This document shows positions 9,998-14,251 of a stretch of DNA of 64,000 nt, piece by piece. The stretch covers positions 62,001 to 126,000 of the forward strand of contig JAFLBH010000001.1 of the NCBI GenBank assembly GCA_017303905.1, given 5' to 3'. The notes below the pieces were generated by a model. That model did not search any database. It was given only the letters and a program-made list of their open reading frames with translations, and was not told the origin of the DNA. Position numbers and translations under genes: made by a program. How positions within the stretch are numbered: the first letter of the stretch is position 1; each line of letters begins with the position of its first letter. Source of the DNA: Bacteroidota bacterium (lineage in GTDB: Bacteria; Bacteroidota; Bacteroidia; B-17B0; Aurantibacillaceae).

Positions 9998-10228
9998 CTA
10001 TTTTGTTTGCGCCTTAGCCGAATCAACAGGTACAGCTTGAGGAGGAGCCTGTTGTAAATTAACATATTTGAGCGGCTCGTTAAGACTGCTATCGATAAGA
10101 TGAGCTAATGAATCAGACATGCGCTTTGCTAAACGATCCATTTGTTTTCTGTCTTCAGCGGCAGGACCACAGGAAATAAAAATTACAGCAACAAGGAGGG
10201 CAATGCTAAAAGTCTTTTTCATAATCAA
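9998..10228 (-). CDS. Small lipoprotein, paralogue of the next one upstream
   Basis: This predicted lipoprotein is 76 residues long, or 74 if the second ATG (MKKTFS) is used, which looks more natural. The signal peptide ends in the lipobox FISC, with the cysteine at position 18 of the shorter form followed by GPAAEDRKQ. The mature part is short, charged and probably helical, with RKQMDRLAKRMSDSLAHLI, and has a proline-rich end. The lipobox context CGPAAE and the helix resemble the lipoprotein at 10341-10586 (CGPSAEE), so the two look like a duplicated pair. Function unknown. It is read after a hairpin that separates it from its paralogue. Confidence 0.68.
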   Translation of the reverse strand: MIMKKTFSIALLVAVIFISCGPAAEDRKQMDRLAKRMSDSLAHLIDSSLNEPLKYVNLQQAPPQAVPVDSAKAQTK

Positions 10229-10283: not shown

Positions 10284-10316
10284 GAAAGGCCCTATCGGAA
10301 TCCGACAGGGCCTTTC
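10284..10316 (-). terminator. Strong hairpin between the paired lipoprotein genes
   Basis: Two 16-base arms (10284-10299 and 10301-10316) pair at 15 of 16 positions and carry GAAAGGCCCT/AGGGCCTTTC. No long T tract follows on the minus strand, so this may be an attenuator or mRNA-stabilising stem-loop rather than a full terminator for the lipoprotein gene at 10341. Confidence 0.6.
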
Positions 10317-10340: not shown

Positions 10341-10586
10341 TTAGTGGTGAGCTTCTTCTTTTGGAGCTTCAGTAGCAGCAGCTTCAGTAGTAGCAGCAGC
10401 AGCTGAATCAACAGTAGCAGCAGCTTCTTCAACTGCAGTGTTTAAGCTTGCTTCTAAAGCTTTAGCGATAGAATCAGCAGTAGCTTTTGCAGCTTCTTCA
10501 GCTTTAGCTTTTTCTTCTGCAGATGGACCACAAGCAACTAATGTAGCTACAGCAGCTACAGCGATAATTGAAAATACTTTTTTCAT
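10341..10586 (-). CDS. Alanine-rich small lipoprotein
   Basis: This protein has 81 residues from ATG 10586. A longer frame upstream has no signal peptide at its start and is rejected. The signal peptide ends in the lipobox LVAC with C19, followed by GPSAEEKAKAEEAAKATADS. The mature protein is almost entirely alanine, glutamate, lysine and threonine, low in complexity and probably helical. It ends in a PKEEAHH tail. It is transcribed away from the ECF sigma gene, with a 238-bp gap between them, and resembles the neighbouring lipoprotein at 9998. It might be an abundant envelope spacer or a sigma-regulon member, but nothing in the sequence proves either. Confidence 0.7.
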   Translation of the reverse strand: MKKVFSIIAVAAVATLVACGPSAEEKAKAEEAAKATADSIAKALEASLNTAVEEAAATVDSAAAATTEAAATEAPKEEAHH

Positions 10587-10784
10587 GATTTTTTGAGTTT
10601 TAATGTTTGTAATTTGACTATTTATACCAAAACAGGATTTTGGTAACCCGTTTAAATAGAAAAAAACGGATATTTTTTGTAACTTATTGATTTTCAATAT
10701 ATAAAATTTGATTCTTTTTAAAGGTTACCTGTTTCACCAAAGCTCCAAAAAATAAAATAAGTGCTTTCTGCCATTAATTTGGGT

Positions 10785-10792
10785 TACCTTTG
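10785..10792 (+). promoter_or_regulatory. TACCTTTG -7 box of the sigma factor gene
   Basis: TACCTTTG is an exact TAnnTTTG match ending 32 bases before the sigma gene ATG, in the 238-bp divergent spacer. No clean TTTG lies 20 bp upstream, so the -33 region is degenerate or bound by another sigma. Confidence 0.45.
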
Positions 10793-10824
10793 GCGCAATT
10801 ACGAATTAATTAACAGACAGATTT

Positions 10825-11385
10825 ATGTCGGGCAAAAAAGCAGCGTACACCGATTTGGAATTTATTGATGGTTTAAGAACCGGAAATGAAGCTGCCTTAA
10901 AGGCCCTATATAAAAAGTACTATAACATCGTTCTTAAAATTGTTGTAAATAACAGCGGAGGCAGCGAAGCGGCTCAAGACGTTTATCAGGAAACAATTAT
11001 TGTTTTATTTGAAAACGTACAAAAGCCGGGGTTTGAATTAAATTGTCAGTTACAAACTTACATTTATTCGATCGCCAAACGTTTATGGTTAAAGCAGCTT
11101 CGAAACAACGGGCATTTAGTGAGGCTTGATGAAGACGAAGATGAAAGTGTAGATGTAGGGGAAGAAATTGCCGACCATGAACAAAAGGAAGCTGACCTGC
11201 TGAAAATGGCAAAAAGTTTGGAGGACTTAGGCGAACCATGTAAAACGATAATTAAAGATTTTTATGTGAATCGTTTAAGCATGGATGAAATATCAGAGAA
11301 GTTTGGTTATACCAATTCTGATAATGCCAAAACTCAAAAGTATAAATGCCTGCAACGATTGAAGAAAAGTTTTTTTGATAAGTAA
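10825..11385 (+). CDS. ECF-type RNA polymerase sigma factor
   Basis: This 186-residue sigma-70-family protein has only regions 2 and 4. Region 2 is about residues 15-80 (ALKALYKKYYNIVLKIV, then AQDVYQETIIVLFENV and IYSIAKRLWLKQLR). Region 4 is a helix-turn-helix at about 130-180 (LSMDEISEKFGYTNSDNAKTQ). The linker is acidic (DEDEDESVDVGEEIADHE). Such factors are normally held inactive by an anti-sigma encoded next door. The gene 21 bp downstream starts with an anti-sigma-like segment fused to a protease, which makes this a probable signalling pair. The divergent lipoprotein gene may belong to its regulon. Confidence 0.92.
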   Translation: MSGKKAAYTDLEFIDGLRTGNEAALKALYKKYYNIVLKIVVNNSGGSEAAQDVYQETIIVLFENVQKPGFELNCQLQTYIYSIAKRLWLKQLRNNGHLVRLDEDEDESVDVGEEIADHEQKEADLLKMAKSLEDLGEPCKTIIKDFYVNRLSMDEISEKFGYTNSDNAKTQKYKCLQRLKKSFFDK

Positions 11386-11406
11386 TTAAGAGAAGAAAGA
11401 TAGAAA

Positions 11407-12483
11407 ATGAAGAATACTGATTTATTTGACGATTATTTACGCGGAGATTTAAATACTGCCGATAAAGCTGATTTCGAGAATCGCTTAAACAATGATGCCG
11501 TTTTTGCTAATGCATTTAATGAACATAAAATTTTTGTTGACACGTTAGCAAAACATGAAAAGAGAAATGAATTAAGAAATGTTCTTAAATCCATTCACGC
11601 GAAAACATTTGGCAACGAACCAAAAATTCTTCCATTTAAACAAGAGAAGTTTTATCACAAGTTGGGTAAAAATGTGGCGATGGCGGCAGGTGTTGGTTTA
11701 GTTGCTGTTTTATCTACCCTTGCGCTTTTAAGTACCGGTGGCTATTTATTAACGAAACAAAGTAATGAAATCACCGATTTACGTCGCGAGGTAAGCGAAT
11801 TAAAATATACGCAGGATAACATCGTGGAAGTAATGGTGAAAGCGGCTGAAAAACCAAAATACGCACCGGCTAATTTTGAAGGAACCGGTTTTGCCATCAA
11901 CAACAAAGGTTACTTAGTAACCAGCTTACACATGATTAAAGGTGCTGATTCCATTTTCGTTGAAAACGGAACCACTACACGCACTTTAACTAAACTTGTA
12001 TTTAGCGATCCATCTATAGATATCGCCGTTTTAAAAATAGAAAACGAGGAATTATCAAAGGGATGGTCGGTTCCATTTATTTTCAGTAACCGCACTTTAG
12101 ATTTAGGAGAGAAAGTTTACACATTGGGCTACCCTCGCGAAGATGTGGTGTATGGCGAAGGTTCTTTAAGTTCCCTAAGCGGATTTAAAGGTGACACAAC
12201 CATGTATCAGATTTCTATTCCTGTAAACCCGGGTAATAGTGGCGGGCCATTATTAGACGAACAAGGCGCTGTTGTAGGTTTGGTAAGAGGTAAGATTACT
12301 TCTGCCGAGGCTACCGGTTTCGCGGTTAAATCGAAAGAAATCATTAATACCATTAACGCTTTTAATGAAGGCGAATTAAGTGTTCCAACTAAAAAGAATG
12401 CGCTAAAAAATGTTAAACGTAACGAGCAAATCAAAAAGATTAACCCCTACGTTTTTAACATTTTAGTTTATAAGTCTAATTAA
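11407..12483 (+). CDS. Membrane protein joining an anti-sigma-like cytoplasmic segment to a periplasmic HtrA-type serine protease
   Basis: This protein has 358 residues. Residues 1-70 (FDDYLRGDLNTADKADFENRL and on) resemble the N-terminal segments of Bacteroidota anti-sigma factors. A single membrane segment spans about 89-115, followed by a short coiled coil (about 117-138). A trypsin-like S1C domain runs from about 155 to 320. The catalytic triad is complete: H175 (TSLHMIKG), D205 (PSIDIAVLK) and S278 (NPGNSGGPLLD). No PDZ domain follows, and the C terminus is short and basic. The topology puts the protease outside the inner membrane and the anti-sigma-like part inside. It is directly downstream of the ECF sigma gene and followed by a terminator. 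A plain HtrA-like quality-control protease is the alternative reading. Confidence 0.85.
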   Translation: MKNTDLFDDYLRGDLNTADKADFENRLNNDAVFANAFNEHKIFVDTLAKHEKRNELRNVLKSIHAKTFGNEPKILPFKQEKFYHKLGKNVAMAAGVGLVAVLSTLALLSTGGYLLTKQSNEITDLRREVSELKYTQDNIVEVMVKAAEKPKYAPANFEGTGFAINNKGYLVTSLHMIKGADSIFVENGTTTRTLTKLVFSDPSIDIAVLKIENEELSKGWSVPFIFSNRTLDLGEKVYTLGYPREDVVYGEGSLSSLSGFKGDTTMYQISIPVNPGNSGGPLLDEQGAVVGLVRGKITSAEATGFAVKSKEIINTINAFNEGELSVPTKKNALKNVKRNEQIKKINPYVFNILVYKSN

Positions 12484-12510: not shown

Positions 12511-12540
12511 AAAGCCGTTTGTAACATAACGGCTTTTTTT
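12511..12540 (+). terminator. Intrinsic terminator after the sigma/protease operon
   Basis: Nine-base arms AAAGCCGTT (12511-12519) and AACGGCTTT (12528-12536) surround an 8-base loop and run into a T tract reaching 12540. It separates the sigma/protease pair from the outer-membrane protein genes. Confidence 0.85.
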
Positions 12541-12568: not shown

Positions 12569-13432
12569 GTGCTAAAATTGAAACAAATATTATTTGGGCT
12601 CTTGTTAATCTTAAACCTTGGCATTAAGGCTCAAGACTTAATTTACCTGAACAGCGGCAGCAAGTTTGAAGCTCTAGTGAAGGAAATCACTGAAACATCC
12701 ATAAAATATAAAAACATTAATAATCCGGAAGGTCCAACTTATGTGATAGCTAAAACGGATGTTTTATTTATTGAATACAAAAATGGAAACGTTGATGTGA
12801 TTAATAAAAATCCCGCTCCGGTTAGTCCAAAATCTACTACTCCTTCCGCCGGCGAGAGCAAAGAAACAAAATTAGCGAAACCCTCAGACGTTTATTACAT
12901 GAACAAAAATTCCTTCATGATAAACGGACTTGCACTCACAAATGCCGATATAACATTAATGTACGAGCGGGATTTATTGCAAAATCACTTAGGCGTAATG
13001 GTTTTAGGTTCCTATAATTTTAATACACGAACTACTTGGCCAAATTTATATTTAATGGATTTAGCTAATACCAAGAAAAATTACGATATAGGTTTAGGTT
13101 TAAACTTCTATCCTTCCGTAAGAAAAAAATCACAATACTTTGTTGGCGTTTTAGTGAAGTACATGAATTATTCGTTTGACCGCGAGATAACAGTGCAGGA
13201 AGAAATTGGCGGTTTTATTTTTGAAAAAATTGAAATTCAAAAAGCACAGGGCTACCAACTGGCTACTATGATTGTAAATGGATTTCAGGTACGCATTACA
13301 CCTACCTTTACTTACAAAGCATTTGTGGGTATTGGTCCGTTTAGCGGTGATGCCGATTTAATGAAAACAGAACTTGCACAAACAGGATTACCCAAAATGT
13401 ATTTAGGACTTTGCTTTGGTTACCGTTTTTAA
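12569..13432 (+). CDS. Outer-membrane-type protein, first of a tandem pair
   Basis: This 287-residue protein starts at GTG 12569. It has a signal peptide (KQILFGLLLILNLGIKA, cut before QDLIY). It opens with a domain of about 65 residues: a strand (DLIYLNSGSKFEALVKEI), then TSIKYKNINNPEGPTYVI, ending FIEYKNGNVDVI. The next gene repeats this domain. After a low-complexity linker rich in serine and proline, the rest is strand-rich and ends in aromatic GLCFGYRF, as in outer-membrane beta barrels. The head domain pattern (exported, preceding a barrel) is known in many Bacteroidota proteins of unknown function. Only 3 bp separate it from its paralogue. Confidence 0.72.
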   Translation: MLKLKQILFGLLLILNLGIKAQDLIYLNSGSKFEALVKEITETSIKYKNINNPEGPTYVIAKTDVLFIEYKNGNVDVINKNPAPVSPKSTTPSAGESKETKLAKPSDVYYMNKNSFMINGLALTNADITLMYERDLLQNHLGVMVLGSYNFNTRTTWPNLYLMDLANTKKNYDIGLGLNFYPSVRKKSQYFVGVLVKYMNYSFDREITVQEEIGGFIFEKIEIQKAQGYQLATMIVNGFQVRITPTFTYKAFVGIGPFSGDADLMKTELAQTGLPKMYLGLCFGYRF

Positions 13433-13435
13433 TTC

Positions 13436-14251
13436 ATGAAGACTCTATACTACATACTCATTTTATTTTGCGTTGGCACTTTTGTTAAAGGGCAAGATAA
13501 AGTTGTTTTCAAGAACGGTAAAAAACTTAATTGCAAAATTGTTTCCATCAATCCGAGCACCGTCACTTATAAAGACAGTACCTCAGCCGGTAACATGATT
13601 ACAGTTTCTAAGAATGAAATCTTAATGGCTGAATTTAGCAGCGGCAATGTTTATATTTTCGGAACAACAACAAACACATCGGTTGCCGCGCCATCGAGTT
13701 CTAGTAATAAACCTCTTGACAGAAAAGCACAGATCCGCGAGAAAGAAAAAGAGTTTAAAGACAACATTATTGGTATTCAAATCCCGGATGTTGTATTTGG
13801 AAGGTTAACACTTACCTACGAACGATTATTTTTTGACAAACAAATCGGCATTACACTTCCGGTGAGTATGAGCTACGACAGACGTGTGATGTTTCTCGGA
13901 TTTAGTTCAGATACTTCTGCTAACACTTCTGCCAGTACTGTGAGACGTAATGTTAATTTTATTACGGGCTTAGATCTTAATTATTATTTCGAATCTAAAT
14001 CACACACTAAATTTTTTATTGGTCCCCGTTTTAGATACGGTACGGATGTTACCATGGAAAACATTACTGCTTATTCGGTTCAGATGCAAAACGGTATTTT
14101 AATTGCCAGTCGTAATGGAAAAATGGCAAGCACCCTAGCTCTTGGATTTGGCTTTGTCAGAATTGTAGCTTCTCCTTTTGGTGGTGGAATTAATCCGAAA
14201 CAATCTTACCCTTGGGGCTCATTCACATTCCGCTTAGGATTTAGAGCATAA
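13436..14251 (+). CDS. Outer-membrane-type protein, second of a tandem pair
   Basis: This 271-residue protein has a signal peptide (MKTLYYILILFCVGTFVKG). It carries the same head domain as the gene before it: DKVVFKNGKKLNCKIVSI, then STVTYKDS and a strand ending MAEFSSGNVYIF. A serine-rich linker and a strand-rich C-terminal half follow, with alternating segments such as RLTLTYERLFF and KFFIGPRFRYG, and an end in FRLGFRA. The pair looks like a tandem duplication that has diverged strongly in the barrel part. Its last 46 bases overlap the 3' end of the convergent PLP-enzyme gene. Function unknown. Confidence 0.72.
   Translation: MKTLYYILILFCVGTFVKGQDKVVFKNGKKLNCKIVSINPSTVTYKDSTSAGNMITVSKNEILMAEFSSGNVYIFGTTTNTSVAAPSSSSNKPLDRKAQIREKEKEFKDNIIGIQIPDVVFGRLTLTYERLFFDKQIGITLPVSMSYDRRVMFLGFSSDTSANTSASTVRRNVNFITGLDLNYYFESKSHTKFFIGPRFRYGTDVTMENITAYSVQMQNGILIASRNGKMASTLALGFGFVRIVASPFGGGINPKQSYPWGSFTFRLGFRA

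Follow-up and report, generated by a model that had tools for sequence, protein, structure and literature searches.

An ECF sigma factor gene in Bacteroidota adjoins a gene for a predicted anti-sigma factor joined to a PDZ-less HtrA-type protease

Introduction

Envelope-stress signalling is known mainly from E. coli, where the inhibitor and the protease are separate proteins. The Bacteroidota locus that we describe here resembles the sigmaE-RseA-DegS-RseP cascade of that species (PMC8103513) in its ECF sigma factor, single-pass anti-sigma factor, membrane-anchored HtrA protease, predicted autoregulated operon and predicted envelope targets, and in the presence of an RseP-type site-2 protease in the genome. 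It differs from the cascade in that anti-sigma factor and HtrA protease form one chain, in that no PDZ domain is present to read the C-termini of unfolded proteins, and in that the operon consists of two genes and has no RseB-like gene. With DegS itself the fusion protein shares a membrane-anchored HtrA-type protease with an intact triad but not the C-terminal PDZ domain, and this absence rules out its being a DegS. Its N-terminal part resembles the ASDI family of anti-sigma factors, e.g., RsiW, ChrR, and RskA (PMC7406223), with a cytoplasmic helical domain showing the same pattern over helices 1-3, an adjoining ECF sigma gene, and one membrane span; unlike that family, it is joined to a protease, and helices 1-2 have been lost in part of one family of fusion proteins. 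RseA and RskA likewise lack the Hx3Cx2C zinc motif (PMC7406223), as does the fusion protein.

MarP (Rv3671c) is also a PDZ-less, membrane-anchored HtrA-like protease, and provides the best NCBIfam model and one of the top fold matches for the fusion protein. The MarP model (NF033740) scores 92.2 bits over residues 131-330, against a cut-off of 250 bits, which rules out membership of the MarP family; MarP has several membrane spans whereas the fusion protein has one, and we know of no anti-sigma domain in MarP. RsgI and the anti-sigma factors of cell-surface signalling undergo autoproteolysis without a protease domain of the kind found in the fusion protein. In RsgI of Clostridium (PMC12203970), and in the cell-surface signalling anti-sigma factors as far as they are described in the secondary account of Bastiaansen 2015 (cited in PMC7593790), the chain is cut by itself and RseP acts later, a sequence of events like the one we propose below; unlike these self-cutting anti-sigma factors, the fusion protein has a complete serine protease built in. 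HtrAw of Brevibacillus WF146 is a membrane-anchored HtrA as well, has a PDZ domain that the fusion protein lacks, and carries an anchor for which the available part of the report gives no anti-sigma role (PMC5359297). Merging of two components into one chain within an ECF signalling pathway is also seen in IutY of Pseudomonas putida (PMC7593790), where sigma and anti-sigma factor are merged rather than anti-sigma factor and protease. The EcfO/Reo and Dma anti-sigma factors of Bacteroides, like the fusion protein, belong to Bacteroidota pairs of ECF sigma and anti-sigma factor, their roles being in the envelope or in stress, and the accessible portion of that study does not report a protease fusion (PMC13088901).

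Our search of the open-access literature, which was not exhaustive, turned up no account of anti-sigma factors fused to HtrA proteases in Bacteroidota. Class I anti-sigma domains, PDZ-less HtrA proteases, and autoregulated ECF operons are known kinds; the one-chain merger of anti-sigma factor and HtrA protease is apparently undescribed; the predicted sigma promoter and lipoprotein regulon are also new here. A gene that is near-universal in at least one Bacteroidota order joins inhibitor and protease, so that two separate proteins would no longer have to recognize each other, and the fusion offers a simple model in which to study the gating of an HtrA protease that has no PDZ domain. An ASDI neighbour was found for only 6% of Bacteroidetes ECFs (PMC7406223), and the fusion may help to explain why so few anti-sigma partners are recognized in this phylum. 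With a promoter motif and target genes to work from, the pathway is open to direct tests.

Results

Within the window, i.e., the whole 64,000-nucleotide stretch of DNA that we analyzed, an earlier note made from the sequence alone had placed an ECF sigma gene 21 bp upstream of a frame combining anti-sigma factor and protease. Open reading frames and domain matches bore out both genes and their spacing, and showed them to be co-directional:

10825-11385, plus strand: ECF sigma factor, 186 aa, regions 2 and 4 (TIGR02937, 6.2e-20; Sigma70_r2, 1e-8)
11407-12483, plus strand: 358-aa fusion of predicted anti-sigma domain, membrane anchor, and HtrA protease
11407-11610, plus strand: predicted anti-sigma domain, residues 1-68, zinc motif absent (profile matches, structure model)
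11674-11736, plus strand: single membrane segment, residues ~90-110 (hydropathy)
11770-11844, plus strand: predicted periplasmic helix or short coiled coil, residues 122-146, low confidence (model m471c8d3552fc, pLDDT under ~60)
11878-12366, plus strand: PDZ-less HtrA-type serine protease, residues 158-320 (Trypsin_2, fold matches, triad)
12418-12471, plus strand: conserved C-terminal helix and strand, residues 338-355, EQIKK..PYVFN..VY (alignments; pLDDT ~81-90)
12511-12536, plus strand: terminator-like hairpin 3' of the protease gene

The fold of the sigma protein resembles sigmaE, AlgU, and SigK chains by structure comparison, and the hairpin downstream of the protease gene suggests a two-gene operon. 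From its N-terminus, the fusion protein consists of a helical domain, a single membrane span, the coiled coil, the HtrA-type protease without a PDZ domain, and the conserved C-terminal strand. The one membrane segment and short coiled coil described in the earlier note were both recovered, the latter as a low-confidence prediction, and the Lys-rich flank before the membrane segment fits an N-terminus located inside. Also as described there, the S1C triad is complete (H175, codon 11929-11931; D205, 12019-12021; S278, 12238-12240) within a Trypsin_2 match covering residues 159-292 (1.4e-22), and a PDZ domain is absent, with no Pfam match to one and only ~40 residues following the protease domain. 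The best folds for the protease are HtrA proteases, including DegS without its PDZ domain (DegS-deltaPDZ), MarP/Rv3671c, and MucD. Alignment of the stalk by eye showed no conserved site-1 cleavage motif, and stalk length and sequence vary.

The C-terminal tail (residues 338-355) ends in alternating hydrophobic residues and is kept throughout the aligned members. Frames of 509-592 aa without the anti-sigma domain also match the model to its end, tail included, so the tail seems to be part of the protease subfamily rather than of the fusion as such. We infer that this tail replaces the PDZ domain in a gating role. These longer frames (G786, G860, G840, G878, G760, and others) combine the same PDZ-less protease and tail with a different N-terminal part, and frames of the same size class ending in a PDZ-less protease, again with a different N-terminal part, were seen in G009:C52, G011:C16, G016:C146, and G027:C533. 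The only other HtrA match in the genome of the window is a 505-aa open frame.

The earlier note had also proposed that the first 70 residues are of anti-sigma type, and profile comparison upheld this. The whole-protein model places helices at residues 3-12, 17-29, and 31-68, with pLDDT of ~80-92 to residue 50, falling to ~65 by residue 70. Using hhalign against Bacteroidota zf-HC2 proteins, residues 3-53 aligned ungapped over 51 residues with a probability of 95.5 (E 1.5e-8), where 40 column-shuffled control profiles reached at most 0.5. In curated HMM libraries, residues 1-88 matched no Pfam or NCBIfam family above threshold, although the commonest sub-threshold matches among 30 members were to anti-sigma models, namely NF052375 (11/30), PRK13920 (8/30), and zf-HC2 (7/30). 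Sequence searches of the PDB with this domain gave matches to PPAR and to a retron effector, which we dismissed as chance. The Hx3Cx2C zinc motif that marks the ZAS subclass occurs neither in the window protein nor in its alignments. At the level of sequence profiles, this analysis identifies residues 3-53 as a predicted zinc-less class I anti-sigma (ASDI) domain. In genomes without the fusion, the same N-terminal domain follows related sigma genes and is linked by a membrane span to periplasmic parts that are TPR-like or of other kinds, the TPR label being our reading of the sequences and not a database match; the profile match between the two sets of N-terminal domains scores 98.8, with shuffled controls at 3.2 or less. 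Carriers of this domain thus appear to form a modular family of Bacteroidota anti-sigma factors. The joining to TPR-like or other parts is seen in L199, L205, L207, L208, L210-L213, L218, L221-L224, and L226.

Our survey of Bacteroidota genomes demonstrated that the pairing recurs in several families; the earlier note had proposed that sensor, anti-sigma factor, and protease share one chain here. The sigma gene adjoins the fusion gene, close and co-directional, in 209 of 209 non-redundant pairs, and the H, D, and S of the triad are intact in every one of these loci, a pairing far beyond chance. This set comprises the loci of the window's own family, matches from Sphingobacteriales, Mucilaginibacter, Pedobacter, Sphingobacterium, Hymenobacter, and Chitinophagaceae, and further genome searches. 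The gap between the two genes has a median of 7 bp and exceeds 150 bp only once, and the GNSG core is invariant in aligned members. In the window's own family the sigma gene lies immediately upstream in 30 of 30 loci, and in two of the genomes of this family without a full match the sigma gene runs off a contig edge. When the phylum was sampled evenly, sigma-linked relatives appeared in 29 of 395 genomes, and matches then fell off sharply to protease-only ones. The fusion protein was present in 248 of 250 genomes from the order of G061, which includes Sphingobacteriaceae since its locus L118 shares the first 150 residues with the Mucilaginibacter locus L036; among 199 genomes from the order of G075, full-length proteins are almost confined to one family.

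Alignment of upstream regions revealed a conserved motif, GGGTTACC-N-GTATTAA, just 5' of the sigma gene. The pattern GGTTACY-N13-15-GWATWAA occurs twice in the window, against 0.02 occurrences expected, once before the sigma gene and once before a divergent lipoprotein gene:

10782-10809, plus strand: predicted sigma-dependent promoter of the sigma operon, GGTTACC-N14-GAATTAA (motif, conserved across loci)
10621-10648, minus strand: divergent copy of the predicted promoter, GGTTACC-N14-GTATAAA, before the 81-aa lipoprotein gene (motif)
10341-10586, minus strand: small Ala-rich lipoprotein, 81 aa, predicted regulon member (divergent promoter)
10284-10316, minus strand: terminator-like hairpin, 15 pairs, between the lipoprotein genes
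9998-10222, minus strand: second small lipoprotein, 74 aa, beyond the strong hairpin

Of the 209 loci, 201 have a slightly relaxed form of the motif 5' of the sigma gene, among them loci from families outside the set used to define it; of 1700 mononucleotide-shuffled upstream regions, 0 have it. The earlier note had suggested the divergent lipoprotein pair as the target regulon; the first gene (10586-10341) has a predicted promoter, but the second (10222-9998) lies past the hairpin, has no sigma motif upstream of it within the window, and is probably its own transcript. The divergent copy is present in 46 of the 85 loci of our first set, and, with one exception among the cases listed, the first open reading frame behind it encodes a small lipoprotein-like protein of 58-93 aa. 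In G013 and G020, an unlinked small lipoprotein gene on another contig still carries the motif (L261, L262). The remaining exact-spacing site in the window's genome, together with sites in four relatives, precedes a coiled-coil lipoprotein of ~290-310 aa (L257, L258, L263, L265, L268), and in two more genomes the motif precedes another lipoprotein of ~295 aa (L259, L260). Genome-wide, the motif is otherwise only slightly above the control pattern, so the regulon is probably small. The conserved motif suggests autoregulation and an envelope-lipoprotein regulon. A further GGTTACC without a -10 element lies at ~10724, upstream of the sigma gene, and a palindrome, GGTTACTAAGTAACC, at 11908-11922 on the minus strand inside the protease coding sequence, presents the -35-like GGTTAC in both directions, also without a -10 element. 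Past the operon terminator, positions 12569-14251 encode two adjoining, possibly paralogous secreted proteins of 287 and 271 aa, the former with a sub-threshold DUF3575 match only; no sigma motif lies upstream of this pair.

We also modelled contact between the two proteins by folding sigma factor and N-terminal domain as one chain through readthrough of stops (table 6). In this model the linker forms a continuous helix (165-206), there is no native-like interface, structure-alignment rows barely cover the N-terminal domain, and the fit of the sigma domains to known complexes is only piecewise (rmsd ~24). Mean-field DCA of 196 pairs (Meff 109) gave sigma/N-domain couplings only slightly above sigma/protease couplings, and after entropy matching they were still closer to expectation.

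Discussion

We propose that the two genes form an autoregulated envelope-stress module in which the roles of RseA and DegS are united in one chain that would make the site-1 cut itself, with an RseP homologue acting at site 2; we put the probability of this reading at roughly 55%. Bound by the cytoplasmic anti-sigma domain, the sigma factor would stay at the inner membrane, and the periplasmic PDZ-less protease would stay inactive until an envelope signal, probably a misfolded or mislocalised envelope protein, reaches the protease or the C-terminal strand. The active protease would cut the periplasmic stalk, either its own or that of a neighbouring copy, in a step equivalent to site-1 cleavage of RseA by DegS; the RseP homologue would then cut the membrane helix at site 2, the anti-sigma fragment would be degraded, and the sigma factor would turn on its own operon and small lipoprotein genes. 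The architecture, the identity of the anti-sigma domain, the adjacency, the promoter and regulon prediction, and the presence of a site-2 protease all have computed support, the last as a candidate at C1:195952-197232, which is RseP-like with Peptidase_M50 (1.3e-48) and PDZ domains. The conserved motif before the sigma gene is the expectation for autoregulated sigma/anti-sigma operons, and so counts in favor of this mechanism. HtrAw cuts off its own membrane anchor between molecules when substrate is present (PMC5359297), so that the site-1 step proposed here has a precedent. What we infer is that the fusion protein binds the sigma factor, that this sigma factor recognizes the promoter, that protease activity is regulated and gated, that the chain cuts itself, and that the cascade follows this order. 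Weighing against the mechanism are 13 members of family f31 that lack helix 1 yet have the sigma gene, the one-chain fold with its lack of a native-like interface, the DCA couplings, which do not clearly exceed those of matched protease columns, and the stalk, where we saw no conserved cleavage site. Stated in full, as a self-contained envelope-stress sensor kept in several Bacteroidota lineages, with a single protein serving as anti-sigma factor, sensor, and site-1 protease, a C-terminal strand instead of a PDZ domain gating the protease, a cut in the protein's own stalk that frees the sigma factor, and a regulon of the operon and envelope lipoproteins, the proposal is more tentative and falls somewhat short of even odds.

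HtrA proteases usually degrade misfolded proteins, and the fusion protein could instead be an anti-sigma factor combined with a quality-control protease for other envelope proteins, with the sigma factor raising its level under stress, the anti-sigma domain providing negative feedback, and another protease making the site-1 cut. This is unlikely, if the most serious of the alternatives: the operon promoter would make the protease itself a main output and the missing conserved self-cleavage site would be accounted for, but a fusion kept without exception in 209 of 209 loci would be needless if the two roles were independent. That the protease-like domain is mainly a sensor or chaperone, with signalling by conformational change or through another protease, agrees with the TPR-like parts that replace the protease in related sigma-linked proteins, but is improbable, as some lineages should have lost catalytic residues if the domain were only a sensor, and H, D, and S, as well as the GNSG core, are invariant (209/209 for the triad). 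Just as doubtful is the possibility that the sigma gene merely drives expression of a membrane protease, for which the sub-threshold Pfam and NCBIfam calls, the f31 members without the first two helices, and the DCA, which gave no clear sigma contact (196 pairs, Meff 109), can be cited, but against which stand the shuffle-controlled profile matches to zf-HC2 proteins and to other sigma-linked N-terminal domains and the strict sigma adjacency.

For the proposed two-gene module, the shortened f31 members are of particular relevance. The 13 members (L183, L185-L191, L193-L195, L119, and L124) lack approximately the first 38 residues, i.e., anti-sigma helices 1-2, and retain the sigma neighbor, the protease, and the helix equivalent to residues 45-75; the promoter is retained too, with one exception among the cases listed. 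Five f31 members are full length. In the tree, the shortened rows surround the full-length f31 rows with moderate support, which is compatible with one or two losses of helices 1-2. The earlier note had held that protease homologues lacking the N-terminal segment while keeping the sigma neighbor would speak against its reading, and half of this was found, since these 13 members keep the neighbor but also the residue 45-75 helix. In class I anti-sigma factors helix 1 binds sigma region 4 and helix 4 binds region 2 (PMC7406223), so that, by analogy, partial sigma binding may be enough in the shortened members. These members represent a natural deletion experiment on which helix is essential.
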